This document shows, piece by piece, positions 5,701 to 63,827 of a DNA stretch of 64,000 nucleotides. The notes beneath the pieces were generated by a model. That model did no database searches. It worked only from the letters and a program-made list of their open reading frames with translations, and was not told where the DNA came from. This stretch comes from Lepraria neglecta (lineage: Eukaryota; Ascomycota; Lecanoromycetes; Lecanorales; Stereocaulaceae): positions 124,001-188,000 of the forward strand of contig CM065653.1 in the NCBI GenBank assembly GCA_033220425.1. The letters are read 5' to 3'. The position numbers and the translations under genes were made by a program. Position 1 is the stretch's first letter. Each line of letters opens with the position of its first letter.

Positions 5701-8700
5701 CATTATTCTACCACGCTCCTAAGTCCAAATTCCCGTGTATCATGCCTTATTACCAGACCGCGATTTCCTCTTTGAGCCGGAGGAATACGAGCTATCTCTA
5801 TATACACACCTCGTCGACTTATCTCTTACTGCCGTAGTAGCGAAAAACGACTCAGATTATTCCGTCAAGATCCCGAGAAATCTTCGCCTTAGGACCGTCC
5901 AAGAAGCGAACTTCGATAACTGCTATTACATTACCTCAGGACAGTATAACGTCGCCGAGTTAGCTACGCGCCGCCCGAAGAAGGAATACCAGACAAGCTG
6001 GATAAAGCGAGTGTTTAACAAGGTTGCCACAGCGTCCGCCATCGCTATATTAGCAGTACTAGCTGCTACGCTAATACCAACAGCGTCGATTTCTACCGAA
6101 ATCTCTGTTACGCCAACACTCTACGATTGCGTTCTAGCGAATAGTATCACCGTCTACGGGGATAATCCGGCTATCAAGGCCGTTATCGACGAATTTCCAA
6201 CGCTATGGCAGGAAGGTGGCTTTACAGACGTTCCCTAGAATCAATAGATACGGATTCCGTTGAAGTCTGACTGGGAAGAACGTACACCCAAGACTGTACG
6301 TGTCTACCCATTAAGTAATAAGTCTAAGAAAGTGGTCGACAAGACCTTCGACAAGCTTCAAGAGCAGGGACGCCTTAGCTGGACTTCTGAGTTAACGCCG
6401 TTCAGCTTCCCAGTATTCGTTGTCTGGAAGACATTGCCGGATAGCACCAGGAAGGGGAGAGCTGTTGTTGATATTCGAGGCCTTAATGCGGTTACCTAGA
6501 CCGATATCTACCCTTTGCCTTTGCAGTCTGATATGATCTCTTCTATCAAGGACTGCCACTATATTAGTGTCGTCGACTGCGCTAGTTTCTTTTATTAATG
6601 GCGAGTATATCCTAACGACCATCACCGGCTTACAGTTATAAGCCACCGAGGTCAAGAAACATTCAATATCGCGGTAATGGGCTATAAGAACTCACCGGCC
6701 TATGTGCAGAGATAAATCGACAGGCTACTACAGAGCTCCCGAAACTTTGCCAAGGCATACGTTGACGATATCGTCATCTTCTCTCGAACCTTAGCAGATC
6801 ACGTTCAATATCTGCGTTCAGTCTTTAAGCTTTTTATAGACTCAGGAATCTCGGTAAACCCCTCTAAGGCATTCCTTACTTATCTATCAGTTTAATTACT
6901 AGGCCAAAAGGTCGATTCTTTAGGTCTTTGGACCGCCGAAGACAAGCTCCAGGCCATTTCTAAGCTTTCGTTTCCAACGACGTTGTCATAGCTAGAGACC
7001 TACTTAGGCATGACCGGCTGGCTCCGGAACTATATTACTTATTATGCTGCTATAGCGAAGCCTCTCCAAGATCGAAAAACTGCTATATTAGCGTCGTTAC
7101 CAAAAGCTGGAGATGAGAGACGGAATTTCGCTAAGAGGAACCAAATTGGTGAGCCGACTTCGGTCGAGATTACGGCTTTCCGATCTCTTCAGAAGGTACT
7201 TTCAATACTATCATTTCTTACCTACTTCGATGACAAGTAACCCTTATATATTAATCTTGATGCTAGCAAGGAATTTGGATTCGGCGCTATAGTTTACCAC
7301 GTCACTAGTAAAGTTAACGCCTATCCGACGCGCTCCCAGCTTCGGCCTGTCCTATTTCTAAGTCGTCTCCTTAAAGACGCCGAAACTAGATACTGGCCTA
7401 CCGAACTCGAACTTGCCGGAATCGTTTGGGTCCTCAGTAAGACTCGATATATGGTCGAGTCTGCACCGAAGACAATCATCTATACGGATCACGGTGCTAC
7501 CTTAGGGATTACCAGACAAACGACAATGTCCACCTCCAGTACTGCCAAGCTAAATCTTCGCCTCATCCGAGTATCAGAATATATCCAGCGTTTCCGAAGC
7601 CTAGAGTTCCGTCACAAGCCAGGAAAACAACATATAGTACCCGATACTTTGTCGCGTCTTTACGCTGCTACAACCGCCGATCGAGATACTATAGAAGGAC
7701 AGCTCGATACCTTCGCCTATACTACCTCTGTACTTGTCCAGCTCAGTCCAGAATTGCGCCAACAAATTATCGAAGGCTACAGGACAGACAAGTCTTGGAA
7801 GAAGATAATCGACACCCTCGATTCCAATAAGAATGCCGGCGAGGACGCCGCTCAGCTTCCTTTTGCCCGGGATCCCCAAGGCCTTATCTGGAAGATCGAC
7901 GCCGCCACGGGTGACCATGCCTTCTTACCAGATCGTCTCTGCGTTCCGAAACCTTGCGTCAAGACCTTCCTAGAAATCGCTCATTCCGGGAGTCACCTAG
8001 GCTTTGCCAAATACTACGAGAGCATCTCTCGACAATGGTACATACGTAAGCTCACCAATCATCTCCGAGACTTTCTTCAATACTGCCCTCAATACCAGCT
8101 ATTTCAGACACGAAGACATCTGCTGTATGGTTCGCTCCAACCGATTATGACACCTCCGGTGCCTTTCCATACCCTAACGATTGATTTCATCCTTGCCTTG
8201 CCGCTGTCGACGAAAGGTTATGACGTACTTATGTCAGTTACTGACAAGTTCTCGCGGAAGATCACATTGATTCCTGGCAAGACGAATTTCTCTGCAGAAG
8301 ATTAGGCACTACAGCTGCTCCGACGTCTTCGAAAGATTGACTAGGGCCTGCCCAAGGCCATTATTTCTGACCGTGATCGGAAATTTCTCAGCGAGCTTTA
8401 GAAAGCGCTGTTCACTAAGCTCGGTGTCAAGCTACTCTACTTAACAGCTTACTACCCACAGACAGACGGCGCGAGTGAACGCACTAATCAGACTGTTGAA
8501 ATTGCCATCAGATTCTGGATGTCTACTCTCGACGCCGTCGATGCCTGGCCTCTTACAATCCCCGCTATCCAAGCAAGCTATAATAACGCCGTCTCAGCTC
8601 CAACTGGAAGGACGCCGAATGAAATAGCGTATGGATTTTCGCTCAATCAGCCACTAGATCTGGGAGCCTACGATAGAGAAGTCTTCCCTAAGGAAATAAC

Positions 8701-11064: not shown

Positions 11065-14000
11065 ACAGATGGAGGCGGCATCCGGGGGCTTTCAAGCCTA
11101 TATATCCTGAAGAGCGTCATGAATGTCCTAGGAACGAAGGGTGGACAGCCGCCAAACCAGCCATTCCGTCCTTGCGACTACTTTGATCTGATCGCGGGCA
11201 CATCTACGGGCGGGTCAGTTGAGAGCTTCCGCTGCTTGTGCTTGCGCTCACATATACAGGCTTATCGCTGTGATGCTCGGGACCCTTCGAATGGACATAG
11301 AGACCTGCATCGACGAATATTTGGATATTGCGCCAGAGATCTTTCCGGTGGAGGACACAATAAGTGGAAGCGCGTTCGGAAAACTTCTCAAGGTCGTTAG
11401 GGGTCGACAACGATTCGACCCCAGACCGCTCGAATCGGCCATTAAGCGCTTGGTGACGAAACATTTAGGAGACCAGGCTACGGCAGGTGAAAACACGCTT
11501 TTCAGATTCCGAACCTCCAACACCAGCGAAAGCCATAAGTGCAACGTGTGAGCTGCTTCGTCCGGTCGCCTCGTGGCCCGTGCTCGTGATAACATTTTCC
11601 AGATTCGTATGTGTCACCACTGAAAAACTCGGGAAGCCTTTTCGTTTTCGAAGCTACGAAAGTCCTTGGGATGTCGTCGACGACTGTCCTATTTGGCAAG
11701 CCTGCCGTGCCACCTCCGCTGCGCCCATGTTCTTCCCTCCGATAGAAATTGGGAGGCCTCCCACGGCATACGTTGATGGAGGCCTGGGGTACAACAATCC
11801 GATCCGGGGATTGATGGAAGAGTCGTCTCACATCTGGCCGTCGGGGAGGAAAGTCGGCTGCGTTGTGACCATCGGGACGGGAGTATTGATGTCCAGAGAT
11901 ATTGGAAGAACCATCAAACCTCTCTTCGAGTGCTTAAAGGACATGGCTACTGATACGGAGAAGGTCGGAAGGGAATTCGAAGAGGAAATGAAATACAAGT
12001 ATGGCATCGAGCAGCAGGTATACTTCCGTTTCAACGTTCAACATGGGCTGGAGCATGTCGGACTGGAGGAATGGAAAGAGATGGATAGGACAAAAGTGGC
12101 AACCCAGGATTATCTCAGAACTCAGTGGAGCCAGGTGGAAAGGTGTGCGTCTCAGCTTTTCCAGCCGAGGGGTATGTGAAACGTCTTTTATCCACGATTG
12201 CTGAGCAGAGAATGACGTGAGACCAATTCATCTGGTATTTCGTCAGACGAGACTGATACTTCCATGTGAGCGCTAGTCCCGGTTCTTTTGCGTGCCGTGA
12301 ATGTTCCAGACACCTACTTCTTCAACATCACCATAAGGCAAGTAGGGACTTTCGTGGCGCGATCGGCTCTGCACAATGCGATCAAAATGGGGTTCAACGA
12401 TGATCTTCGGCAAACGCATCCAATCCAGCATATTGCTGTGGTGTACGGACTCGGCGGTGCCGGGAAGTCACAGCTGGTACTCGACTACGTGCTAGCAGTG
12501 AGGACCGGATATTCAGGAATTTTTTGGATCGATGCCAGAGACAAAGACTCTGTCGAACGTGATTTTGGACAGCTGTACCGTCTCCTGTTTAGGATCCAGA
12601 CGGTAAATAATCGAGATCTGCCAAAGAGTGAAGACGTGATCTTATTAGTACGAGATTGGTTCGTGCGACGAGCAGAAAGATTCCTTTTGGTGTTCGACGG
12701 TGCCGATAATATCGATAACGCTGGGGAACCCTCTTACGTGAACCTGAGCAAGTTCATCCCGCAATGTACGTCAGTGAATGTGATCATTACCACGCGTCTA
12801 TCGGCAGCTCAACGCTTTGGTTCGTTCTCAGTGGAAGTTCACGAAATGGAAGAGGATGAGGCGTTAAGACTACTCTTCAACAGCTCTGGATTAGTCCCGA
12901 AGCAAATGACACCGGCCCAACTAGGAGAAGCGCAACGCATTGTTAACGAACTTGGACGCTTGGCACTCGCGATCAGCTTGGCTGGATCATATATATCAAA
13001 CACCCCTCGCATCTCGATGGATATCTCACAGTATCTGCCGGAATATCACGATCGGCGCAAAAATCTGTTAGGTCAAAAGTCGAGCCACCTAAGAGATGAA
13101 TACGGAGAGAGTGTTCTGAGTACTTGGGAGGTATCATTTGCGGCCATAAGCCGCAAGTCTGCGACGGCTGCCAACCTCCTTGTTTTTCTCGCCTTCCTCG
13201 ATGCCACGGATATCTTTCCAGAGCTGTTCGGTGCTCTTGTTGAAGACACTGCGAACACTGGAGATGAAAAAACAATAGCTGATTCCTGGCAAGATGCAAT
13301 CACACATCAGAAGCCTTTAAAGCGTCATGACGTCGAAGAAGCATTTTCGACTCTGAGGTCTTTCTCGTTCGTTCGATGGATGCCCGACCAAGAAACGTAT
13401 TCTATGCACAAGCTTGTCCATGCTTGGGGCGGTGATCGATTGGATTTAGCCGAAAGAACTGCCACAATTTGGGCAACCGCACTGTTTTTGCAGGAAAGAA
13501 CACTGTGTGGTCCAGAGGCTCCTGAACAGAAATTGCGACTAGTTCCGCATTTGATGGCAAGCTTTAATGCTATCTCTCAATCATCAAATCGAACCAGATG
13601 TACTGAGTTGAGTAATATATCTCGACACGTGCTTCCGTCCTATTCACATTTTCTTGACGAGCTCGGTCACTGGTCCAATGAGGCCAAGATCCAACAATTT
13701 CTTTTGGAGCTCTCTCGCGATATCTTTGGTCTAGAACACCCTGACACCATCTCAGCGATGAACAATCTCGCCAGTACCCTCGGAGACCAAGGCAAGCTTA
13801 ATAAAGCAGCGGATATGAAGAAGGAGGTCTTAGAGAAGAGGACACGAATCCTCGGTATAGAGCATCCTGACACCATCTCAGCGATGAACAATCTCGCCAA
13901 TACCCTCGGAGACCAAGGCAAGCTTAATAAAGCAGCGGATATGAAGAAGAAGGTCTTAAAGAAGAGAACACAAACCCTCGGTATAGAGCATCCTGACACC

Positions 14001-15779
14001 ATCTCAGCGATGAATAATCTCGCTATTACCCTCAGAGACCAAGGCAAGCTCGACGAAGCAGCGGACATAATGAAGAAGGTCTTAGAGAAGAGGACACGAA
14101 TCCTCGGCGCCGAGCATCCTGATACTATCTCAGCGATGAACAATCTCGCCAGTACCCTCAGAGACCAAGGCAAGCTCGACGAAGCAGCGGACATGAGGAA
14201 GGAGGTCTTAGAGAAGATGATACGAATCCTCGGCGCCGAGCATCCTGACACCATCTCAGCGATGAACAATCTCGCTAATACCCTCGGAGACCAAGGCAAG
14301 CTCGACGAAGCAGCGGATATAAAGAAGGAGGTCTTAGAGAAGATGATACGAATCCTCGGCGCCGAGCATCCTGACACCATCTCAGCGATGAATAATCTCG
14401 CCAATACCCTCCGAGACCAAGGCAAGCTTAACGAAGCAGCGGATATGAGGAAGGAGGTCTTAGAGAAGAGGACACGAATCCTCGGTACAGAGCATCCTGA
14501 CACCATCTCAGCGATGAACAATCTCGCCAATACCCTCGGAGACCAAGGTAAGCTCGACGAAGCAGCGGATATAATGAAGGAGGTCTTAGAGAAGAGGACA
14601 CGAATCCTCAGCGCCGAGCATCCTTATACTATCTCAGCGATAAGTAATCTCGCTATTACCCTTAGAGACCAAGGTAAACTTGACGAAGCAGCGGATATAA
14701 TAAAGGAGGTCTTAGAGAAGAGGACACGAATCCTCGGTATAGAGCATCCTGACACTATCTCAGCGATGAACAATCTCGCTATTACCCTCGGAGACCAAGG
14801 TAAGCTCGATAAAGCAGCGGATATGAAGAAGGAGGTCTTAGAGAAGAGGATACGAATCCTCGGCGTCGAGCATCCTGACACTATCTCAGCGATAAGTAAT
14901 CTCGCTAGTACCCTCGGAGACCAAGGCAAGCTTGACAAAGCAGCGGATATAAAGAAGGAGGTCTTAGAGAAGAGGACACGAATCCTCGGTACAGAGCATC
15001 CTGACACTATCTCAGCGATGAACAATCTCGCCAATACCCTCGGAGACCAAGGCAAGCTCGACGAAGCAGCGGACATAATGAAGGAGGTCTTAGAGAAGAG
15101 GACACGAATCCTCGGTACAGAGCATCCTGGCACCATCTCAGCGATGAGCAATCTCGCCAGTACCCTCGGAGACCAAGGCAAGCTCGACGAAGCAGCGGAC
15201 ATGAAGAAGGAGGTCTTAGAGAAGAGGACACGAATCCTCGGCGCCGAGCATCCTAACACTATCTCAGCGATGAACAATCTCGCCAATACCCTCGGAGACC
15301 AAGGCAAGCTCGACGAAGCAGCGGACATGAGGAAGGAGGTCTTCGAGAAGAGGACACGAATCCTCGGCGCCGAGCATCCTGACACTATCTCAGCGATGAG
15401 CAATCTCGCTATTACCCTCAGAGACCAAGGCAAGCTCGACGAAGCAGCGGACATAATGAAGGAGGTCTTAGAGAAGAGGACACGAATCCTCGGCGCCGAG
15501 CATCCTGACACTATCTCAGCGATGAACAATCTCGCTAGTATCCTCGGAGACCAAGGCAAGCTCGACGAAGCAGCGGATATAATGAAGGAGGTCTTAGAGA
15601 AGAGGACACGAATCCTCGGTGCCGAGCATTATCATACGACTTCCGCGGCTAAAAACTTGAACGTGCTGTCTCAGCGTCAAGCCTCTTACCACGTTATGCC
15701 AACCCCTAAGCAGTTAAAACAAAGATCGTTTTTTCGAACACTGAAACGAAAATTTTATTCGCGAAGGTCTAGTGGATGA
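11065..15779 (+). CDS. Patatin - NB-ARC - TPR NOD-like receptor (fungal NLR)
   Basis: This gene fits the fungal STAND receptors linked to non-self recognition and heterokaryon incompatibility. The patatin phospholipase-like domain opens with DGGGIRG (11068), has the nucleophile motif GTSTGG (Ser at 11203-11205) and the dyad Asp in VDGGLG (11775-11777). In-phase introns are 11214-11259 and 11548-11602. A third starts with GTATGT at 12172 and ends at 12276 or 12309; both fit. The NB-ARC part has a P-loop (GLGGAGKSQ), a Walker B-like FLLVFDGAD, VIITTR and a GxP-like LGRLALAIS. From 13725 come 15 complete 42-residue TPR units plus a degenerate 16th and a basic tail. No stop interrupts the parts after 11065. 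The true start is not seen: an in-frame TAG lies at 11062-11064, so an upstream exon is needed, and the Fot1 insertion ends only 180 bp before. It may therefore be silenced despite an intact body. Confidence 0.85.
13725..15614 (+). repeat. 15 tandem 126-bp units encoding TPR repeats
   Basis: Exactly 15 x 126 bp with no indels. Each unit encodes the pattern LG.EHPDTISAMNNLA.TL then .DQGKL.EAAD..KEVLEKR. Units vary mainly at a few fixed positions: residue 3 of the unit (A, I, T or V), the residue after NLA (S, N or I), G or R after TL, and the residues after EAAD. Such high internal conservation is known for fungal NLR repeats and suggests unequal exchange or gene conversion. A degenerate unit follows from 15615. 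Confidence 0.95.
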
Positions 15780-32929: not shown

Positions 32930-33132
32930 TGTCAGGGGCCTGCCTAGAGCGAGTCGATAGGGGTGTAATATGACTAGGAGAATATATCTAAGGAGAGAAG
33001 ATAGATATATGAAGCCTGCGCGTCTTGGAGACGCGCCAAGCCGCTAGCCATGAGCGGTTATCGAACGTTCGATAACTATACTCTATACTACGCGTATCAG
33101 CACAACCAGTGAGCAAAGGCCAAGCTGTAACA
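32930..33132 (-). repeat. 3' LTR of Gypsy-E
   Basis: 203 bp. Plus-strand reading starts TGTCAGGGGCC and ends CTGTAACA. TSD TTAGT on its left. Confidence 0.93.
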
Positions 33133-33471
33133 CTACCCCCCTCTTAAGTAAGTATCGTCCCTAATACGTAAGGCTAGACGACTATAGCGGCTTTGAACTT
33201 CTAGGCTTGTTTGGATAGCGCGTATAGAAGTCGTCGACCATATCTTGAGCGTTACCAAATTTGTCGCCGTCCGCATAGTACTATTGGCGGTCCGGTTACT
33301 GCTCGTTCTTCTATCGGACCCTGAACTATAGACGTCGATTACGCCCGAATAGTCGAGTATCCAAGATGTCGTCGATCTCCTACTCCTCCTAGCTATCTAC
33401 TATAATAGGTCTTGGCGGCTCCGTTTACTAACTAGGTAGAGGGTCTATAGCCGCTTTTCGTAGTAGACTAG

Positions 33472-33883
33472 TATTAGAACCAGAGGGTTCTAACAGGACT
33501 GTCGCGAAGGACATATAACTTCGGGCAGGACAGGCAAGTAAAGCGATGATCGCAATGATCGCAGTGCGAGCAATGCTATCAGGGATGATGATCGCAATGA
33601 TCGTAGTGCGAGCAATACTATCAAAAGTGCTTGGCAGGATTTCTTATGTCTATATATACGAGGCTCTGCCTACTATTTGGAGTAGTGTATTCAACTTGGT
33701 TAATCTTCCTAGTACTCCTTACACTATACTTTACTAGTTATTAATATAGAACGTATTAGTTACCTACTCTCAACGAAGACTACTATTCTACCTAAGTAAC
33801 TCCTCTCCTATAGAAGTATAAGATATACGAACCCATACGTGGCTATCGTACTATTAGGTATATAACTACCGTAGGTCGTAACA
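33472..33883 (+). repeat. Left LTR of Gypsy-D2
   Basis: 412 bp. It contains two copies of a GATGATCGCAATGATCGCAG-type segment near 33545-33610. Confidence 0.93.
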
Positions 33884-33949
33884 CTTTAAACACCCTAAGG
33901 GATGAGTTCTTCAACAACTTCAGGCAGAAACCCTACCCTAAGCACCTTA

Positions 33950-36900
33950 ATAGTTACTAGCTAGAGATACTATACTATAGACGAAGGATCTGGAAAGAGG
34001 ATCAAGGTTATAGTACTAGACCTATACTACGGAGATAGGGACAAGCTTAAGCCGTGGCTTACATAAGTATAACTATACCTTCTATTCCAGGGAGATCTGC
34101 TCCTAGTAACTAGATATACTACCTTCGCCATATCATACCTACGAGGACAGGCCTAGAAGTAGGTCGAACCTTTCCTAAAGAAGTATATAGAAGACGACGA
34201 CGAAGACGGCGACGTTAAGTTATAGATAGAAAGTATGCCAAAGTTTATAGTTAAAATCCGCTATATATTCAGACCTTCTAATAAGGTAAACGTAGTAATA
34301 CGTATTATTTAGTATATAAAGTAGAAGAAGTCAGCGTTAGAGTTTTTAACTTAGTTTTAGATATATACTACTAAGATAGGCTGGGATAATAATACGCTAA
34401 TAATAATATATTATTATAGCCTTAAAGATAATATTAAAGACGAGCTTATAAGATTCGGAGGAGTAATTAATACTCTAGATAGACTTATTAAAAATACGAT
34501 CGAAATTAATAACAAGTTATTTAAATAATCTATAGAGAAGTAGTATAACGGAGGAGTTAGCGGAACCTAATACAAGGGATTCTTCTTAAAAACGAGGAAT
34601 TACTAATAAGACTACAGAGAATATAATACTTACTATAGTATAGTACTAATAGAGATTAACTTTATCTAGGTAGGAAAGAAGAAAGGAAACTTTAAAGGGA
34701 AAAAGCAGTACGGGGGAAAGAAAGTAATTACTTACTATAGCTATAGTAAACTAGGTTATATAGCTAGAGACTACAGGTCGAAGAATATAGTATACCGACT
34801 ACAGATTAACGTAATAGAAGGAGGACCTCTAGATAACGAGGAAGACTCCGAAGAAATATAGTAACCCTATAAAGGAGAAGAATTCAGTTAGGATTCGGAA
34901 GATAATACCTTTGAATCGGAATTTAATAAAGAAGTATAGAGGTATTACTATAGGGATAGTAATAGATCTTAATAGTATAAGACGGATTAGGAACAGCGGA
35001 AAGCTAGTCTAGAGAGACTAGCGTCGACACCCGAACCTAGATCTACTATATCCTAAGTAGAAGGAAAATTACTAGAAATTAAAGAACCTTAATTAGACGA
35101 AGATAAATATAAACTCTTTAATAAAATTGAAAGTAAGGTATAAGGTATACTAAATAAGTAATTATCTGCGAAACCCGGATAGGAAGAACCTATACGAGAC
35201 TATTAATACGATAGAGAATATTAGTAATATAGCGAAGTTCTATATACTAAATATATATTACCCGACTACTCTATATATAGGGAGGAAAGAGGCCGTCTAG
35301 CGAAAGAGTACACGGTACCTCTACTAAAGAGAACCCCTTATAGAGAGACCTAGTAGTATAAGTATAAGGAAGATAGGTACTAGTAGTATCTTGCGAGTAA
35401 AAGGAAGTATTACTACTTCCTATACTTTATAGATAAGTAGGAAAAAGAAAGAAATAACTTACTTAAAGTCTTTAAGAGAGGAGCTTACAACTAAGTACTA
35501 TAGTATAGCTACTTATATAATAAATATATTCCGTATAAAGGTATAAAGGAAGTATATAGATTCCTACTATTACAGGGAAAAGAGTAATCCCTTATACTAC
35601 AGGGAAGTATAAGGAGATTAATACGTTATTCCCTAAATAACAATTATGTTCCGCCTAGTATTACACTTATATTATTATACTAGTAAATATCGATAGATAG
35701 CGGACTATAGCGATAATAGATAGCGGAGCTACAGGAAATTTTATCTTAAGGAACTTAGTAGACTTAAGCGGCCTACCGACCCGAAAGAAGAAATTGTCCT
35801 ATAAGCTACGCCTAGCTAATAGGTTAGTATTTTTAACAGGAAAAGTAGAGGAGGAGATATACTCCCTACTAGTAATAATTTAGTAATACTACAAGGAAAT
35901 TATATTCGATATAGTTAGGATAGCTACTTATAATATTATTTTAGGAATATCTTGGTTAAATAAATATAACCTAGAAATTAACTAGAAGATAAAAGTACTT
36001 AAATTCGGATAATCTAGAGATATCGCTAGTATTAGACCTATTAGTCGATAGTAGACGATAATAGATAAGAGAAAGAACCGAAGACTAGTCGAAGTATATA
36101 TTACTTTATTCTTAAATAATAAGAGCGACTTCTAAGAGAGAAGGCTCGACTCCTTAGTTACTAGTAAAGGTTAGCGGGATACTAAAGAGAGAGCTATTAA
36201 AGGAAAAGACGAACCTTCTATAATCTCTCGGGAATATAAACGGTAGGTATACCTATTTAAGGAAGAGACGAGCGTAAAAGTATTACCTAAGTACTAACTA
36301 TAGGATTATAAGATCGAACTCGAACCTAGTAAGGCGCCAATATTTAGACCTATCTATATATTATCAGAAAAGGAACTTACTATACTTCGCGGGTATATCG
36401 ATAAGAACCTTAAGAAAGGATTTATTCAGGAATCCAAATTACTAGTAGGTTATCCAATCCTTTTCGCACCGAAGAAGGATAGAAGTCTAAGGCTATACGT
36501 CGACTATCGAAAGTTGAACGATATTACTATCAAGAATCGTTACCCTTTACCGAATATTAGTAAGCTATAGGATCGGCTCGATAAAGCAAAGATATTTACG
36601 AAACTAGACCTTAGGGGCGTATATAATCTAATCTAGATAAAAGAAGGTAAAGAATAGAAAACTACCTTCCGGACTAGATATAGCCACTACGAGTATTTAG
36701 TAATGCCGTTTAGACTTACTAACGTACCAGTAACCTACTAAGTATTTATTAATAACGTTATACGAGTACACTTAGATCGAATAGCGATAGCGTACCTCGA
36801 CGATATCTTAATCTACTCCGAAAACAAGAAAGAATATATTAAGTATATATAGGACGTTATCGAATACCTGTCGTAAGCAAGACTTCTCCTTAAACCGGAA

Positions 36901-39063
36901 AAGTGCGAGTTTTATAGGGACTCTATTAAGTTCCTAGGATTTATAGTTAGTATAAAAGGTATTAGTATAAGCCTAGAAAAGATTAAAGCTATAGCGGAAT
37001 AGCCTATACTATAGGACGTCAAAATAGTACAAAGTTTCTTAGGATTTGCTAACTTCAATAGGAAGTTTATTAAGGGCTACTCGAAGAAAGTACTTCTACT
37101 TATAGATATTACGAAGAAGGATATCGGATTTATATAGGGATATAAATAATAAAAGTCGTTCGATACATTAAAAAAAGCATATATAGATCCTCTAGTACTC
37201 TATACCTTTTAAGCCAACGAACCGGCTTATATTAAAATAGATACCTCGGATCTTGTAATAGGAGTATATCTTTATCAAATAAAGGACTAAAAGTAGTATC
37301 CAGTTGCCTACTTTTCACGGAAGATATTAGTAGTAGAATAAAACTATAATATATACGATAAAGAACTACTTGCTATAGTATATATACTTTAAAATTAGAG
37401 AGTATATATAGAAAGCTACTTAGACTTAACTATCTTTATAGATTATAAGAATCTTCTTAACTTTATAATAACGAAGGAGTTAAATAGGAGATAAGTTAGA
37501 TAGTTAGAACTACTTGGACAATATAAGTTCAAGATAACCTACACCCCAGGAAAGGATAATAGTCGAGTAGATACGCTTAGCAGGCGATCGGACTATATAG
37601 AAGAAAAGAATATTACGGAATAACTAATCCTAAAACAAGAAGCCGACGGATTATTAGTACTATACTAGGTATTAGCAATAACCCTTTGTATATTAGGACC
37701 CGATATAACTAACAAGATTATAAAGGCCTATAACAACGATATATTCGCAATAAAGCTACGACAGGATTAACTAGATTTAGTATTACTCAAATATTAGGAT
37801 AAAACTTACTTGCCTAATATATACGTTAAAGAAGTGATTAGAGATCACTACGATGACCCTTTATAAGGTTACCCTAGAGTATCTAAGACTATAGAACTCC
37901 TAGGACGAGGATACGCAGCGCTAAGACTTCGGACACGCGTTAAACAATATATCAAGGAATATATCCAATATTAGTAGAACAAGTCTATATAATATACAAA
38001 GTACGGGCAGATATAGTTTGCCCCGGTACCAGAGTTACTATAGGATGACGTTATAATAGACTTTATAGTCAAGCTACTACTATTAAAAGACCTAGCTATA
38101 TAGGATACTTTTAACTCAATTATAGTTATTATAGATAAACTTACAAAGTATACAATTATAATACCGTTCAAGGAGATATATAAAGTAGATTAGTTAGCCT
38201 TTATACTACTTGACAAGCTAGTAAGGGATTATAGTATACCTAAGTCGATAACGTCCGATAGAGATAAGTTATTCACTTCTAACTATTAGAGAATACTAAT
38301 CGCAGTAATTAGAACTAAACTCCGGATATTAACTATATACTATCTATAGACTAATAGATAAACGGAATATACAAATTAAATAATAGAAGTATACCTAAGA
38401 TATTACATAAACCAGAAACAAGATAACTAGATTTTACTACTTCTAATAGTATAACTAGTATATAACGACAAGAGGTTAGATATAATAGGCCTGATACTAT
38501 TCTTTGCCAATTACGGAAAGAATACGAATATATTTCTATAACCTAGGGAAGGATCTAATATAGAAAAAGCCTTAGTTAAGGTAGAGGAGCTGAAAAGCTT
38601 ATATAAGGATATATAAAAGATAATCGAAGGCTTAAATAATAAGTTAAAGGAGTACGTCGATAGTAAAAGGAAGAATATTCCTTAGCTTAAAAAGGGGGAT
38701 AAAGTATACCTCCTAATAAAAAATATAAAGATAAAGAGACTAAGTAAGAAACTAGATTATATTAAGGTCGGACTATTCTTGATTAAGAAGGTAAAGGGGG
38801 CCGTTAACTATAAACTCGAGCTTCTACCTGATACTAAAGTATATCCGGTATTCTATATCTCACTTCTAGAGCTAGCAGACTCTAATATATTACTCTAAGA
38901 AACGTTTAACTACGATATTAAGGAAGAAACAGAGTATAAGGTCGAGAGGATCCTAGATAGAAGAAATTAGTTCTATCTAGTTAAATAGAAAGGGTATAAC
39001 GAAACGGAAAGTACCTAGGAACCTCTTAGGAACCTTGCGGGGAACTACAGGGAATGCCTATAA
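33950..39063 (+). pseudogene. Gypsy-D2 gag-pol
   Basis: Gag with a decayed CCHC knuckle (YYSYSKLGYIARDY, near 34732-34775), a protease with DSGATGNFI (near 35716), reverse transcriptase (about 36340-36960) with an intact YLDD at 36793-36804, RNase H (about 37250-37560), integrase with an H2C2 region (VIRDHYDDPLQGYPR-like, near 37837) and a SDRDKLFTSNY core (near 38255), and a chromodomain (EEETEYKVERILDRRNQFYL, near 38920-38980). It is less decayed than D1, for example DSG and YLDD are kept, but still has many TAG/TAA codons. Confidence 0.88.
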
Positions 39064-39601
39064 GAGTTTCATCGGAGACAAGAGAAGACCAGTCGAAGCT
39101 CTCAGGGACTTCTATCCCGTCAGGGAGATCGAACTACTTAGACGAGATATTAAATATTAAGTCACCAGAAGGCTTAGGGGCGGTATATTAGTCCTCCTCT
39201 AATTCCTTTATATTCTATAGCTCTCGGTCTACTATATTCTTCTTCTCCTTCTTAACAGAATTTAACTGTGCCTAAAGGCGTACTAATTTTATAAGCGCAT
39301 CGGTAATTTCCTCGCGTAGTTTATTGCGCCGCTTTTTAATACGACGTATTTCAAGGGGCGACACTACAAGGTCATACTTCCGGCTACTAGTAATATAGCT
39401 CGAATATCTATCGGAATCAGCACCTATAAGATACTATTTACTATTGGCAACGTATCGGGAACAAGGTCGTATAACGAAGTCGGAAAGTTCACTGGCCAGC
39501 TCCTTCGAACGGATGGCTGGGTTGGATAATCGTTTAGTACAGATGGGTAGTATGAAGGATAGATGGTTTCTCGGGACGAGAAATCTGGAGGAGGGAGCTA
39601 A
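39026..39601 (-). pseudogene. Antisense Zn2Cys6-like ORF of Gypsy-D2
   Basis: The minus-strand frame between the 3' LTR and pol is 192 codons to TAA 39026-39028 and stays open into the LTR up to ATG 39745. Order: FLVPRNHLSFILPICTKR; a cluster starting with TGT at 39461-39463 in which the six cluster positions are Cys or Tyr with spacing x2, x6, x8, x2, x6 (last at 39374-39376); then a basic, heptad-like helix (RIKKRRNKLREEITDALIKL, LVRLQAQLNSVKKEKKNIVD) and an acidic end (NIKELEED), then FDLPDGIEVPESFDWSSLVS. Cys-to-Tyr is what TGC/TGT-to-TAC/TAT gives. This spacing is that of fungal Gal4-type binuclear clusters. D1 has the same frame and length with conservative replacements. The last ~40 codons overlap sense pol. 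Now dead (TAG/TAA inside). Confidence 0.65.
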
Positions 39602-40013
39602 TATTAGAACCAGAGGGTTCTGACAGGACTGTCGCGAAGGATATATAACTTCGGGCAGGATAGGCAAGTAAAGCGATGATCGCAATGATCGCAGTGCGAG
39701 TAATACTATCAGGGATGATGATCGCAATGATCGCAGTGCGAGCAATACTATTAAAAGTGCTTGGCAGGATTTCTTATATCTATATATACGAGGCTCTGCC
39801 TACTGTTTGGAGCAGCGTGTTCAACTTGGTTAATCTTCCTAGTACTCCTTGCACTATACTTTACTAGTTATCAATATAGAACGTATTAGTTACCTACTCT
39901 CAACGAAGACTGCTATTCTACCTGAGTAACTCCTCTCCTACAGAAGTATAAGACACACGAACCTATACGTGGCTATCGCACCATTAGGTATACAATCACC
40001 GTGGGTCGTAACA
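39602..40013 (+). repeat. Right LTR of Gypsy-D2
   Basis: 412 bp, same length as the left copy, followed by TSD ACTAG (40014-40018). Confidence 0.93.
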
Positions 40014-42017
40014 ACTAGGGTAGAAGATATTATATATTTGTATACTTGCTGGGAGTTCTAGGCGGTAGGATGATCTAACTTTATCTAATACCCTAAACGG
40101 TCCTAGTATCTTATTATCTAGTTTCTTACTCGGATATTCTATACTTATATTCCGACTAGATAGGAAGACTATATCTCCTTTGTTGTATATAATATTAGAT
40201 CTCTTCCTATTAGCTTAATCTATTATTCTCCTGCGGCTCCTAATAGATTATTTGGTTATAAAGTTAAGGACTCTCGTTATATAATTAGTAATATCGTTTG
40301 CCTTTATATACTAGATACGCTTATAAGCCGTAGATCTAGTGTCTATAGGTAGAGAGAAAGATATCCGGGGGTGGAAACCCTTATTAGTAAAGAATAGAGT
40401 TACTCCCGTAGTACTGGTAATAGAGTTATTATCCGCGAATTCGGCTATAGGAAGGAGTCAGACCCAATTATCTTATATATACGTATAGTACGTTCTCAGG
40501 TGACGCTCGACGTCTTGATTAGCCCGTTCTATCTAACCGTTAGTTTCCGGATAGAACGCTATAGATAGCTTGATATCAATCTTCAGCCGCTGATATAGTA
40601 CCTTCTATACTAATGATATAAACTATAGCCCTTGATCGGAAATGATTGACTCTAGAAGACTATAAGAGCGGAAGATATATCTTATAAGGATATTAGCCGT
40701 GGCTTCCGCTGACGTGCCTTAGTTAGTTATAATATATAGAGCGTAATGACGTTCTTTAGACAGCCGATCCACAATAGCGTATATAGTATTGAATCCTTCC
40801 GAGACGGGAAGACCGGTGATAAAGTCTATAGAAATATCTTGCTAGCGTTATTCCGGAATAGGCAAAGCCTATAGTAGCCCATTATATTGATCCCGAGGCG
40901 CTTTGCTTCGTTGGTAGATATAGTAATTATAGATATAGCGAGCAATCTTATCTTTTATACTATACTAGTAGAACTATCTCTTTACTAACTCAAGCGTCCT
41001 ATCTCTGCCGGGGTAGCTATATACGGGTTAGTCATGGCTTTCCTTGATTATATCTATGCGGAGCTCAGCTATTACTAGAACCCAAAGGCGATCCTTATAG
41101 AATAGTGTGTTATTATAACTAGAGTAATGATATAAATTGATCGTTTCGAATATACGGGACGGATCCTTCTCAAGGGTATTATAGATACGCCCGCAGTCGT
41201 CATCCTCCTTGTTTACTAGTGTAACCCTTACGTATAGAGGTAAATCCTAATCCGTCAGCGCGTTGATCTGTTCATCTGATGTGATATCGCTACCGCTACC
41301 CCCCTTTTAGATTCTCTATCCCTAGAGAACCGCGTGTTAGTCGATTTAGAGTTTAGCTCTCGTGAATCAATTGGCTATCGATTTCGCAGGCCTGCGCTAA
41401 AACGGGCCTGTGAAATCGAATTAGGTTTAGTGCCATACTTCTAAAAACACTCTAGAGATAGTAGAGCACGGTATTAATGCTTTTGATACTCATCCTGTCT
41501 ATTAGTAGGAACTAAGTTTGGTATACGCGTTAAGGCGTCCGCTTTGCCATTAGATTTGCTACTCCGGTATATAATTTTGAAGTTGAAGTTAGCTAATTTC
41601 TCTGCCTATCGAGCTTGACGGCGCGTTAGCTCTTTTATCTATATAAAATATTTAAGGCTCTTATAATCGGTGAATATTTGGATAGAGATGTCAGTTGATT
41701 CCAATTTAGGACGCTAGTATTCTAGGTAGCGGATGATTATAAGCAGCTCCTTATTATAGATCTTATAGTTATACTCCGTAGGTAGTAGGTTCTTACTATA
41801 GAATGCAACCGGATAGAGGACTCCGTTATCGTCAGCTTGGGATAAGACACTACTATTGACATAATCAGACGAATCTATCTCTAGCACTGCTGGTCGCGAT
41901 CTATCGTAATACCGAAGTACTAGGGCACTAGTAACCGTACTTTTGAGACGCTCGAAGGCTGCTTAGTATACTTTAGACTACTAGAATAGACAATCCTTCT
42001 TAGTAAGCGATACTAAG

Positions 42018-43077: not shown

Positions 43078-44235
43078 AGTTAGTGCCCGTAATCTTCACA
43101 GAAGATTACCGTAAAACCGGCTATATCTCACTTATCTTATACTCGATTTAGAAAATTTAAGCGGAATTAGAAAGCCCTCTATTTATAGTATATTTTATGT
43201 ATAAAGCTAAGTCCTAACCCTAATATATCGAAAGTTATTAAGGATTTAGTATATTAGTGCTGCGGGGGTAGCTTTAGGGAAGTCCTCAGGCAAAAACATA
43301 TTTTTTGAGCTTTCCTCAGCCAAGTCTTAGCCAAATTTCAAAATTCGAACGGCGTTGGAAAGCCCATGCTTGGTTCCAAAACTCATGAAATCACCTCGAT
43401 ATTATATGACGTATATGGCGCGGGATATCGCTGCGAAGAAGTTGCGGTGCGTATTCAATGTTCTAGGTCCGGGGGCGCCAAGCTCAATGCTTGGCATTTG
43501 CCACCAAGCTTGCGCTGCCCGCAAACATAGCGAAACCGCTTCTTTTACTCATAAGTTTTGCGCAAACAGACCGATTTTGAAAATTTTGACGTTGTTGGAA
43601 AGCGCATGCTTGGTTCCAGAACTGATGAGATAATCTCGATATCATATGACGTATGTGGCGCGGGGTATCGCTGCGAAGAAGTTGCGGTACGTATTCAACT
43701 TTTTTAGCGAAACCGCTTCTTTTACTTATAAGTTTTGCGTAAATAGACCGATTTTGAAAATTCCGGCGTTGTTAGAAAGCGCATACTTGGTTCCAGAACT
43801 AATGAGATTATCTCGATATCATATAACGTATATGGCGCGGGGCATTACTGCGAAGAAGTTGCGGTGCGCATTCAACTTTTGATGTTCCAGGGTCCGGGGG
43901 CGCCAAGCTCAATGCTTGGCATTTGCCACTGAGCTCGCGCTGCCTGCAAAACATGGCGAAAACGCATCTTTTGCTCATAACTATTGCGTAAATGAGCCGA
44001 TTCTAAAAATTCTTGATGCGCAAGCAAGCTAATGACTGACTCCAAAACATATGAAATCATCTCGATATCATATGAAGTATATGGCGCGGGGAAGTAGTGC
44101 GAAGAAGTTGCGCAGCGAATTCAACTTTTGGTGGTTGAAGGCGCTAGCCGAGAGAGGGAATGCAGAATATAGGGCCAATCTCATTGGCTGCAAGTGCGGA
44201 ATTGCTCCGAATTTCGCCATAATCTGTTATTAGAA
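43078..44235. repeat. Tandem-repeat block of unknown type inserted in Gypsy-E pol
   Basis: Four imperfect direct repeats begin near 43337, 43576, 43755 and 44007. Each has AAAATT, a GTTGGAAAGCGCATGCTTGG-like part, CTCGATATCATATGA and GGCGCGGGG...GCGAAGAAGTTGCGG. Some units have an extra segment with GGGGGCGCCAAGCTCAATGC. The block separates the protease and reverse transcriptase parts of Gypsy-E and keeps many CpG and CpA sites that the flanks have lost. Open frames run across the units (43355-43633 and 43646-43882, plus) with the peptide MTYMARGIAAKKLR repeated; whether they are coding is unknown. No target duplication was found. Confidence 0.7.
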
Positions 44236-61349: not shown

Positions 61350-61552
61350 TATCAGGGGCCTACCTAGAGCGAGTTAATAGGGGTATAATATAACTAGGAG
61401 AATATATCTAAGGAGAGAAGATAGATATATAAAGCCTGCGCGTCTTGGAGACGCGCCAAGCCGCTAGCCATGAGCGGTTATCGAACGTTCGATAACTATA
61501 CTCTATACTACGCGTATTAGCACAACTAGTAAGCAAAGGCCAAGCTATAATA
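61350..61552 (-). repeat. 5' LTR of Gypsy-E
   Basis: 203 bp, a C-to-T/G-to-A decayed copy of 32930-33132 (starts TATCAGGGGCC), followed by TSD TTAGT. Confidence 0.93.
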
Positions 61553-63254
61553 TTAGTAGTAGAATAGAACTATAATATACACGACAAGGAACTACTTGCC
61601 GTAGTATATATATTATAGAACTAGCGAGTATATATAGAAAGCTGCTCGGAATTAACTATCTTTATAGATTATAAGAATCTTCTTAACTTTATAATAATAA
61701 AAGAATTAAATAGAAGATAGGTTCGATAGTTAGAACTATTAGGTTAATATAAGTTTAAGATAACCTATACCCTAGGAAAAGATAATAGTTAAGTAGATAC
61801 CCTTAGTAGGCGGTCGGACTATATAGAAGAAAAGAATATTATAGAACGACTAATCCTAAAGAAAGAAGCGGATAGATTACTAGTACTATACTAGGCGCTA
61901 GCAGTAACCCTTTATATATTAGGACCTAATATAACTAATAGGATTGTAAAGGCTTATAATAACGATATATTCGCAATAAACCTATAAAAGGATTAGTAGG
62001 ATTTAGTATTACTTAAATACTAGGATAAGATCTACTTACCTAATATATACGTTAAGGAAGTAATCAGGGATTACTATAATAACCCTTTACAAGGTTACCC
62101 TAGAGTATCTAAGACTATAGAACTCCTAGGACGAGGATACACGGCGCTAAAGCTTCGAGCGCGTGTTAAATAATATATTAAAGAATATATTAAATACCAG
62201 CAGAATAAAGCGGCATAATATACTAAGTATAGATAAATATAATTTGCTTCTATACTAGAATTACTATAGGATAATATTATAATAGACTTTATAATTAAAC
62301 TACTACCTTTAAAGGATCCAGCTATATAGGATACCTTTGACTTAATTATAGTTATTATAGATAAACTAATAAAGTATATAATTATAATACCATTTAAAGA
62401 AACTTATAAAGTAGATTAGTTAGCCTTTATATTACTCGACAAACTAATAAGAGATTATAGTATACTAAAGTCGATAATATCTAATAGAGATAAGTTATTT
62501 ACTTCTAACTACTAGAGAATACTTATAGTAGCGATTAGAACTAAACTTCGGATATTAATAGTATATTACCTATAAACTAATAGATAAATAGAATATGTAA
62601 ATTAAATAATAGAAGTATACTTAAGATACTACGTGAACTAGAAGTAAGATAACTGGGTTTCACTACTTCTAATAGTATAACTAGTATATAATAACAAGAG
62701 GTTAGATATAATAGGCCTGACCCTATTCTTTACCAACTACGGAAAGAATATAAATATATTTCTATAACTAAGAGAAGGACCTAATATAGAAAAAGCCTTA
62801 GTTAAGGTAGAAGAGCTTAAGAATTTATATAAGGATATATAAAGGTCTATTAAGAGCTTAAATAGTAAGTTAAAGGAATAGGTTAATAAGAAAAGAAAGA
62901 ATATTCCTTAGCTAAAAGAGGGGGATAAAGTATATCTTCTAATAAAAAATATAAGGATAACGAGACTAAGTAAGAAACTAGATTATATTAAGGTTAGACT
63001 ATTCTTAATTAAACGGATAAAAGGACCGGTTAACTATAAACTCTAACTTCCACCTGACGCAAAGGTATATCCGGTATTCTATATCTTACTCCTGGAGCTA
63101 GCAGACTCTAGTATACCTCTCTAAGAAATATTTTACTATAATATTAAGGAAGAAATAGAGTATAAGGTCGAGAGGATCCTAGATAGAAGAAATTAGTTCT
63201 ATCTAGTTAAATAGAAAGGGTATAATGAAACGTAAAGTACCTAGAAACCTCTTA
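61553..63254 (+). pseudogene. Gypsy-D1 RNase H, integrase and chromodomain part
   Basis: It resumes in the RNase H domain (YNIHDKELLAVVYIL; FIDYKNLLNF), then integrase from about 62040 (VSKTIELLGRGYTALKLRAR; a core with SNRDKLFTSNY where SDRDKLF is usual; TNRQIEYVN-like) and a chromodomain (EYKVERILDRRN, near 63155-63200). It is joined to 32929 across Gypsy-E with one copy of TTAGT. Confidence 0.85.
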
Positions 63255-63827
63255 GGAACCTTACGGGGAACTATAGGGAATATCTATAAGAGTTCCATTA
63301 GAAACGAGAGAAGACTAGTCGAAACTCTCAGGGGTACCCAGGCCATCGGGGAAATCGAAACGCTCGGAGCCAACATTGAATATAAGGTTACTAGGAGTAT
63401 TTAGAGAAGTTCGTTAATCCTCCTCCAACTCCTTAATGTTTTATAGCTCGTAGTTAACTATCTTCTTCTTCTCGTCTTCTATAGAGTCTAACTATACCTA
63501 GATATATATAAGCTTCGCTAGTATATCTTTTAGCTCTAGTCGTAGTTCGTTACGGCGTTTCTTAACGCGATATATTTCAAGGGGCGACACTATAAGGTCA
63601 CATTTCCTACTACTATCGATATAGTTTGAATATTAGTCGGAATCAGTACCTATTAGGTACTACTTCCCGGCAGCGGTATATCGGGAACAGGGACGCATCA
63701 CAACTTCAGACAATCTACTAGCCAGTATCTTTTTTCGGATGGCTGGATTAGATAATAGTTTAGTACGGTAGGGAGGTATAAAGGATAGATGGTTTCTCGG
63801 GACGAGAAATCTAGAGGAGGGAGCTAA
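63252..63827 (-). pseudogene. Antisense Zn2Cys6-like ORF of Gypsy-D1
   Basis: The minus-strand frame from the LTR edge to TAA 63252-63254 is 192 codons, the same length as in D2 (39026-39601). It reads FLVPRNHLSFI, then a cluster whose first and last Cys survive (TGT at 63687-63689 and 63600-63602), with Tyr at the four positions between, giving C-x2-C-x6-C-x8-C-x2-C-x6-C spacing. A basic helix (RVKKRRNELRLELKDILAKL), an acidic end (NIKELEED) and FDFPDGLGTPESFD follow. Internal stops are TAG/TAA. It overlaps the end of the sense pol. See the D2 entry for the comparison. Confidence 0.6.

Follow-up and report, generated by a model that had tools for sequence, protein, structure and literature searches.

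A past-selected antisense gene with a six-cysteine cluster in RIP-damaged chromodomain Gypsy elements of Lepraria neglecta

A Gypsy retrotransposon of Lepraria neglecta carries, on the strand opposite gag-pol, a long and heavily damaged reading frame, which raises the question of whether this element family encoded an antisense protein and what such a protein could have done. We analyzed the frame in a stretch of 64,000 nucleotides (contig CM065653.1, positions 124,001 to 188,000; hereafter the window, in whose coordinates all positions are given), which lies within a 42.0-Mb genome of 11 contigs. The element, D2 (33472-40013, + strand), is a complete but RIP-damaged Ty3/Gypsy chromodomain element with LTRs of 412 nt each (5' LTR at 33472-33883 and 3' LTR at 39602-40013, both +), flanked on both sides by the target site duplication ACTAG (33467-33471 and 40014-40018). 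The 26 differences between the 2 LTRs are all transitions (26/26), and D2 has a TpA/ApT ratio of 1.57 and a G+C content of 34.5%, versus 0.67 and 49% in a gene region; taken together, these features are the signature of RIP. A single sense frame contains reverse transcriptase, RNase H, and chromodomain, all of which score above the Pfam cut-off (RVT_1, 6.5e-29; Chromo, 2.5e-07). The integrase zinc domain reaches 24.7 bits, slightly below its cut-off of 25.5, and the Pfam scan did not find the integrase core in this damaged copy. With reverse transcriptase, RNase H, chromodomain, LTRs, and target duplication all present, D2 is a chromodomain Gypsy element (chromovirus). The end of pol, with its SH3-like domain and chromodomain, occupies 38701-39153 (+), with a stop at approximately 39151-39153.

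The window contains a second, 5'-truncated copy, D1, which begins abruptly within pol right after a 204-bp sequence (61352-61555). A 94% identical version of this sequence is located at 32932-33135; it thus lies directly to the left of D1 and a few hundred bases to the left of D2. Elsewhere in the window there is a less damaged Gypsy-type fragment (7241-8305, +), with RNase H and integrase zinc domains above cut-off, and a set of 4 direct repeats of approximately 176 bp (43288-44129), 72% to 90% alike to the reference copy. An NLR-like gene lies in a stretch without RIP signature (12270-15779, +); its open frame of 1169 amino acids encodes a NACHT domain together with 15 TPR repeats, each exactly 42 residues (126 bp) long and most of them 86% to 90% alike.

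The sequence-only reading had described in D2 a 192-codon antisense frame (39026-39601) ending at a TAA at 39026, and the same frame in D1 (63252-63827). Direct comparison confirmed the coordinates, the strand, the equal length, the shared TAA, and the absence of indels, as well as the divergence of the 2 copies, which are separated by 161 differences over 576 bases (112 are transitions and 49 transversions). The extent of the frame to the TAA stands, but the frame is not open: it is interrupted by 5 internal stops in D2 and 8 in D1, all attributable to RIP, since for every one of them Gln or Trp is present at the same column in at least one other copy. The beginning of the 192 codons does not hold either. 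The first 16 codons (39554-39601, -) are without coding signal, and their sense strand is a purine-rich tract that, read by eye, is probably the polypurine tract. At codon 17 (ATA in D2), 28 of the 88 copies compared have Met and the other 60 have Ile, which fits an ATG hit by RIP. Since the coding signal is absent from codons 1 to 16 and present from this Met/Ile codon on, the start of the gene is most likely at 39551-39553. The antisense gene of D2 is therefore probably 39026-39553 (-), starting at codon 17 of the longer frame and consisting of 175 codons plus TAA; its counterpart in D1 is at 63252-63779 (-). It is located between pol and the 3' LTR in the orientation opposite to gag-pol and, given the position of the pol stop, shares approximately 128 nt with the end of pol in a tail-to-tail overlap.

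A DNA search of the whole genome gave 41 matches, corresponding to 40 copies, one of them split by an insertion. A protein search in which stops were replaced by X gave at least 151 matches, and another, started from a distant copy, gave at least 150; taken together, the searches place the antisense frame at no fewer than 218 places in the same genome, some of them partial. For the comparisons we used 88 distinct frames from 109 loci; L001-L008 (repeated places), the insertion-split L041, and identical sequences were left out. Because some members of this set were selected by their protein match, it may under-represent frame loss. No such bias affects the 40 copies detected at the DNA level alone, of which 39 can be read without a change of frame between codons 17 and 191, the remaining one being the insertion-split copy. 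The frame is 576 nt long in 78 of the 88 copies; that all lengths are divisible by three is no evidence, because the extraction steps in whole codons. It ends in TAA, a codon embedded in conserved pol sequence, in 86 of 88 copies. Every one of the 88 copies is interrupted internally by one or more stops (a single one in 2 copies), and from codon 17 on 548 of 569 stops are in columns with Gln or Trp in at least one other copy, while 21 are not. A tblastn search of plasmids gave no match, and the viral contigs scanned yielded no confirmed relative.

Because RIP makes only transitions, we measured selection on transversions. On the tree of the 88 copies, transversions in codons 17 to 166 are distributed over the 3 codon positions as 169/114/373 (chi-square, p 1e-37), and on a tree made from purine/pyrimidine letters as 170/106/353. 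The transversions between D2 and D1 from codon 17 on show 12/9/28. Codons 1 to 16 lack this signal (14/14/13). The excess at position 3 vanishes over codons 167 to 191 (14/17/10), where the end of pol overlaps, so this test gives no coding support for the last stretch; pol, and not the antisense protein, may be what keeps these codons and the shared TAA. The transversion-only dN/dS, calculated on 41 pairs, is 0.325 in the antisense frame, the lowest of the 6 frames (1.20, 1.64, 1.21, 0.53, and 1.89 in the other 5). As controls, the adjoining LTR gave values of 0.94 to 1.23 across the 6 frames, and pol gave 0.107 in its own frame (gap-free pairs). The antisense gene has 0.74 gaps per kb, compared with 1.68 for pol and 15.7 for the LTR next to it; the gaps in the gene occur in 8 of the 41 pairs, and 6 of the 16 are not multiples of three in the nucleotide alignment. 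We are virtually certain that the antisense frame is a real protein-coding gene, and these data show purifying selection on it during the active life of the elements, the RIP damage having come later.

A conserved antisense frame could also be the shadow of constraint on the sense strand. The sense frame that shares its wobble position is the one with a dN/dS of 0.53, and its stops are slightly less dense than those of the antisense frame (0.030 vs 0.038 per codon), which speaks for this reading. However, this sense frame is not that of pol and reads serine-rich, and it contains stops within the region in L057 and L088, the 2 copies with the fewest antisense stops. Moreover, when changes are split by their effect in both frames, those silent in the antisense frame are frequent whatever they do in the sense frame (rates of 0.076 when silent and 0.097 when non-silent there), and those non-silent in the antisense frame are rarer (0.043 and 0.026, respectively). 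This two-way split places the constraint on the antisense strand, and we regard a shadow frame as extremely improbable. A role of the antisense strand purely as RNA (double-stranded RNA, silencing), with an incidental frame, is very improbable too: antisense non-coding transcripts of retroelements are known (described in the available text of PMC7264820), but codon-position and dN/dS signals that begin at a Met/Ile codon and single out one frame contradict it. The codon statistics, including the dN/dS comparison with account taken of the sense frame that had been proposed as a check, thus strongly support the earlier suggestion that this family encoded an antisense protein.

What kind of protein was it? 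From codon 17 the product consists of a basic stretch, a six-Cys cluster (39374-39463, -), a 55-residue helix region (codons 83-137; 39191-39355, -), and an acidic C-terminal tail (codons 138-191; 39029-39190, -), with mean charges of +3.7 in the N-part, +2.5 in the cluster, +3.4 at the helix start, and -3.8 in the C-part. The cluster, C-x2-C-x6-C-x8-C-x2-C-x6-C, reads C-Y-Y-Y-Y-Y in D2 and C-Y-Y-Y-Y-C in D1. The earlier observation of Cys or Tyr at 6 positions with the spacing x2, x6, x8, x2, x6 extends to all 88 copies (88/88), Tyr being the RIP product of Cys. Cys is found at the 6 sites in 39, 37, 33, 32, 49, and 53 copies, respectively, and 9 of the 88 copies have all 6 intact. Both number and spacing agree with the Gal4-type Zn(II)2Cys6 rule, C-x2-C-x6-C-x5..12-C-x2-C-x6..8-C. 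Hypothetical proteins with PCSRC-type six-Cys motifs occur in ascomycete genomes. The helix region is charged, contains few Pro and Gly, and shows heptad spacing (a/d contrast of 0.43 vs 0.18 in shuffled sequences, p 0.002), a signal that is weak in its second half (p 0.10 for codons 104-137 alone). A common 14-codon insertion is present in the helix of L095, L100, and L115; it is 2 heptads long and keeps the frame.

The search against the Pfam Zn_clus profile (PF00172), also proposed in the sequence-only reading, stayed below the curated cut-off, with a best E of 0.02, 8 of 19 members matching at E<=10, and L046 scoring 9 bits versus 21. Neither the window copies nor better-kept copies matched any family above cut-off in Pfam and PDB searches: the PDB profile search gave no match with E under 0.1, the Pfam scans detected no bZIP family in the antisense protein, and the bZIP coil of NRF2 was matched in PDB at chance level (E 5.7). 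In Gal4 the loop between Cys 2 and Cys 3 contacts DNA. This loop is mostly CRxRKxKC-like in 12 host clusters, whereas in the antisense protein it reads VANGKQ, TRLGRQ, AAGNKQ, and similar, so the basic first loop is missing; a single basic residue is kept (K or R in 87 of 88 copies). In a profile comparison with the 12 host clusters, only the first knuckle aligns, over 15 to 16 columns and to the second knuckle of the host clusters (probability 66% to 70%), with a score of 22.5 versus a maximum of 20.5 in 40 controls with fixed Cys columns; for the full-length profile the probability is only 30%. Because the score is below the Zn_clus cut-off, the alignment is partial, and the basic loop is absent, we filed the protein as Gal4-like in layout and not as a Zn_clus member. 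It resembles Gal4-type proteins in its Cys number and spacing, followed by a basic linker and a heptad-like helix, and differs from them also in having only 175 codons. The label 'transcription-factor-like' proposed earlier is therefore one of architecture, drawn from the six-Cys spacing, the basic region, the heptad helix, and the acidic tail, and is not supported by the profile score, the first loop, or the alignment beyond the first knuckle.

The U3 region of the LTR contains a pattern that could be a target of such a protein. In the 3' LTR of D2, 2 units of dyad half-sites spaced by 42 bp are located at 39675-39751 (+), and the same array is present in the 5' LTR (33545-33623, +). Each unit of approximately 42 bp has half-sites approximately 9 bp apart, 2 in one direction and 2 inverted, and the copies examined carry 1 to 3 units per LTR. 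Less damaged copies have half-sites GATCGCA with TGCG, GATCGCT with AGCG, and GGTCGCC with GGCG. In 17 of the 88 copies there are exact inverted half-site pairs, 22 in all and each with a one-base spacing, against a mean of 0.01 in 200 shuffles; the inner bases are complementary in 18 of the 22. The motif was picked by eye from these same, mutually related sequences. The array of D2 is a variant outside the exact pattern, with no exact pair. It lies between the antisense start (39553) and a sense TATA-like box, so called from its resemblance to the consensus (CTATATATAC, 39780-39789, +), which is where a shared operator of 2 divergent promoters would lie. Array type follows protein clade. The two are linked physically, however, and RIP damage adds noise to the assignment of types; a parsimony test of array type, which also counts an invariant ATCGCTT that follows the array, is noisy for that reason and carries no weight here. 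Beyond the TATA-like box, the LTR is of 2 different-looking types, which switch among relatives in the antisense-gene tree (L069, L056, L038, and L009), suggesting that U3 recombined with the rest of the LTR.

The sequence-only reading knew of no described case in fungi, which is wrong for the layout. The brtn gene of the Boty-like Gypsy elements of Botrytis cinerea, credited to Zhao et al. 2011, is antisense (PMC7264820, PMC8365987, PMC4227169) and placed between pol and the 3' LTR (PMC7264820), and Boty has a chromodomain (PMC4227169), so that, in the text available from these sources, a fungal chromodomain Gypsy element has an extra antisense gene in the same place. This likeness is one of layout. 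Additional antisense ORFs with the position and orientation of that in D2 are reported for plant elements, namely gene23 of Grande, whose product is nuclear (PMC7264820), RIRE2, TRP28 of Retand, with antisense proteins of predicted DNA binding (PMC11963269), and PvRetro13 (PMC7264820, PMC11963269). These differ in their domains, and the passages available from the 2 papers mention no six-Cys cluster. In HTLV-1, LTR activation is inhibited by HBZ, a bZIP regulator whose antisense gene is transcribed from the 3' LTR (PMC3185765). HBZ differs in belonging to a retrovirus, in being bZIP, with no zinc cluster named in the portion of that source available, and in having a demonstrated transcript, whereas the D2 gene is known from sequence. 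The word 'antisense' does not occur in the available text of PMC3248453 or PMC4427930, on fungal retrotransposons. Antisense genes in this position, including brtn, being known, the layout is not new. In the open-licence papers searched for an antisense or zinc-cluster ORF of fungal Gypsy elements, we found no report of the cluster; relative to that literature, the six-Cys cluster, the selection test, and the neighboring array are new.

Self-regulation is the likeliest, though unproven, role of the antisense product, and we give an even chance to the reading that this chromodomain Gypsy clade encodes a self-regulating zinc-cluster factor in antisense. Transcription would run leftward from U3 of the 3' LTR, and the product would be a small nuclear zinc-cluster protein dimerizing via its helix. 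Its target would be the dyad array, which separates the antisense start from the sense TATA-like box; from there it would tune gag-pol as well as its own promoter, in a manner much like that of HBZ in HTLV-1. Binding of the antisense protein to the U3 array is our inference, and the array could instead be used by a host factor, or work for the sense promoter alone. More tentative, and in our view doubtful, is the complete circuit, in which the antisense zinc-cluster factor reads the dyad operators in U3 as a divergent promoter of both strands, and half-site and cluster loop co-evolve among subfamilies, giving each private control as a convergent counterpart of HBZ.

The same coding evidence applies if the six-Cys knuckles of a real antisense protein bind RNA, protein, or chromatin instead of a DNA operator, for example in nuclear entry, integration, or particle assembly. 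The missing basic loop, the match of the first knuckle to the second half of the host motif, and the nuclear location of the Grande product (PMC7264820, as far as its text is available) speak for this role, which we consider possible but less likely than self-regulation; we judge the exact Gal4 spacing with its basic flanks, the dimer-like helix, and the acidic tail to be regulator-like more than nucleocapsid-like. Capture of a host Zn(II)2Cys6 gene by an ancestral element, in which it is now useful or rides along, is favored by the agreement in spacing and by the knuckle score above the control maximum, and in the host genome 92 of 105 Zn_clus matches (E<=0.1) are above cut-off. Nevertheless, none of the 105 is within 800 bases of any antisense copy listed, and the few aligned columns are in the other half of the motif; we consider capture improbable.

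Plants and one fungal family already provide examples of antisense accessory genes in LTR elements. For the family of D2, RIP-immune codon statistics, a metal-cluster-like architecture, and a candidate target in the LTR make the role of the antisense product directly testable. RIP-damaged genomes, moreover, are still readable for selection when transversions only are counted.
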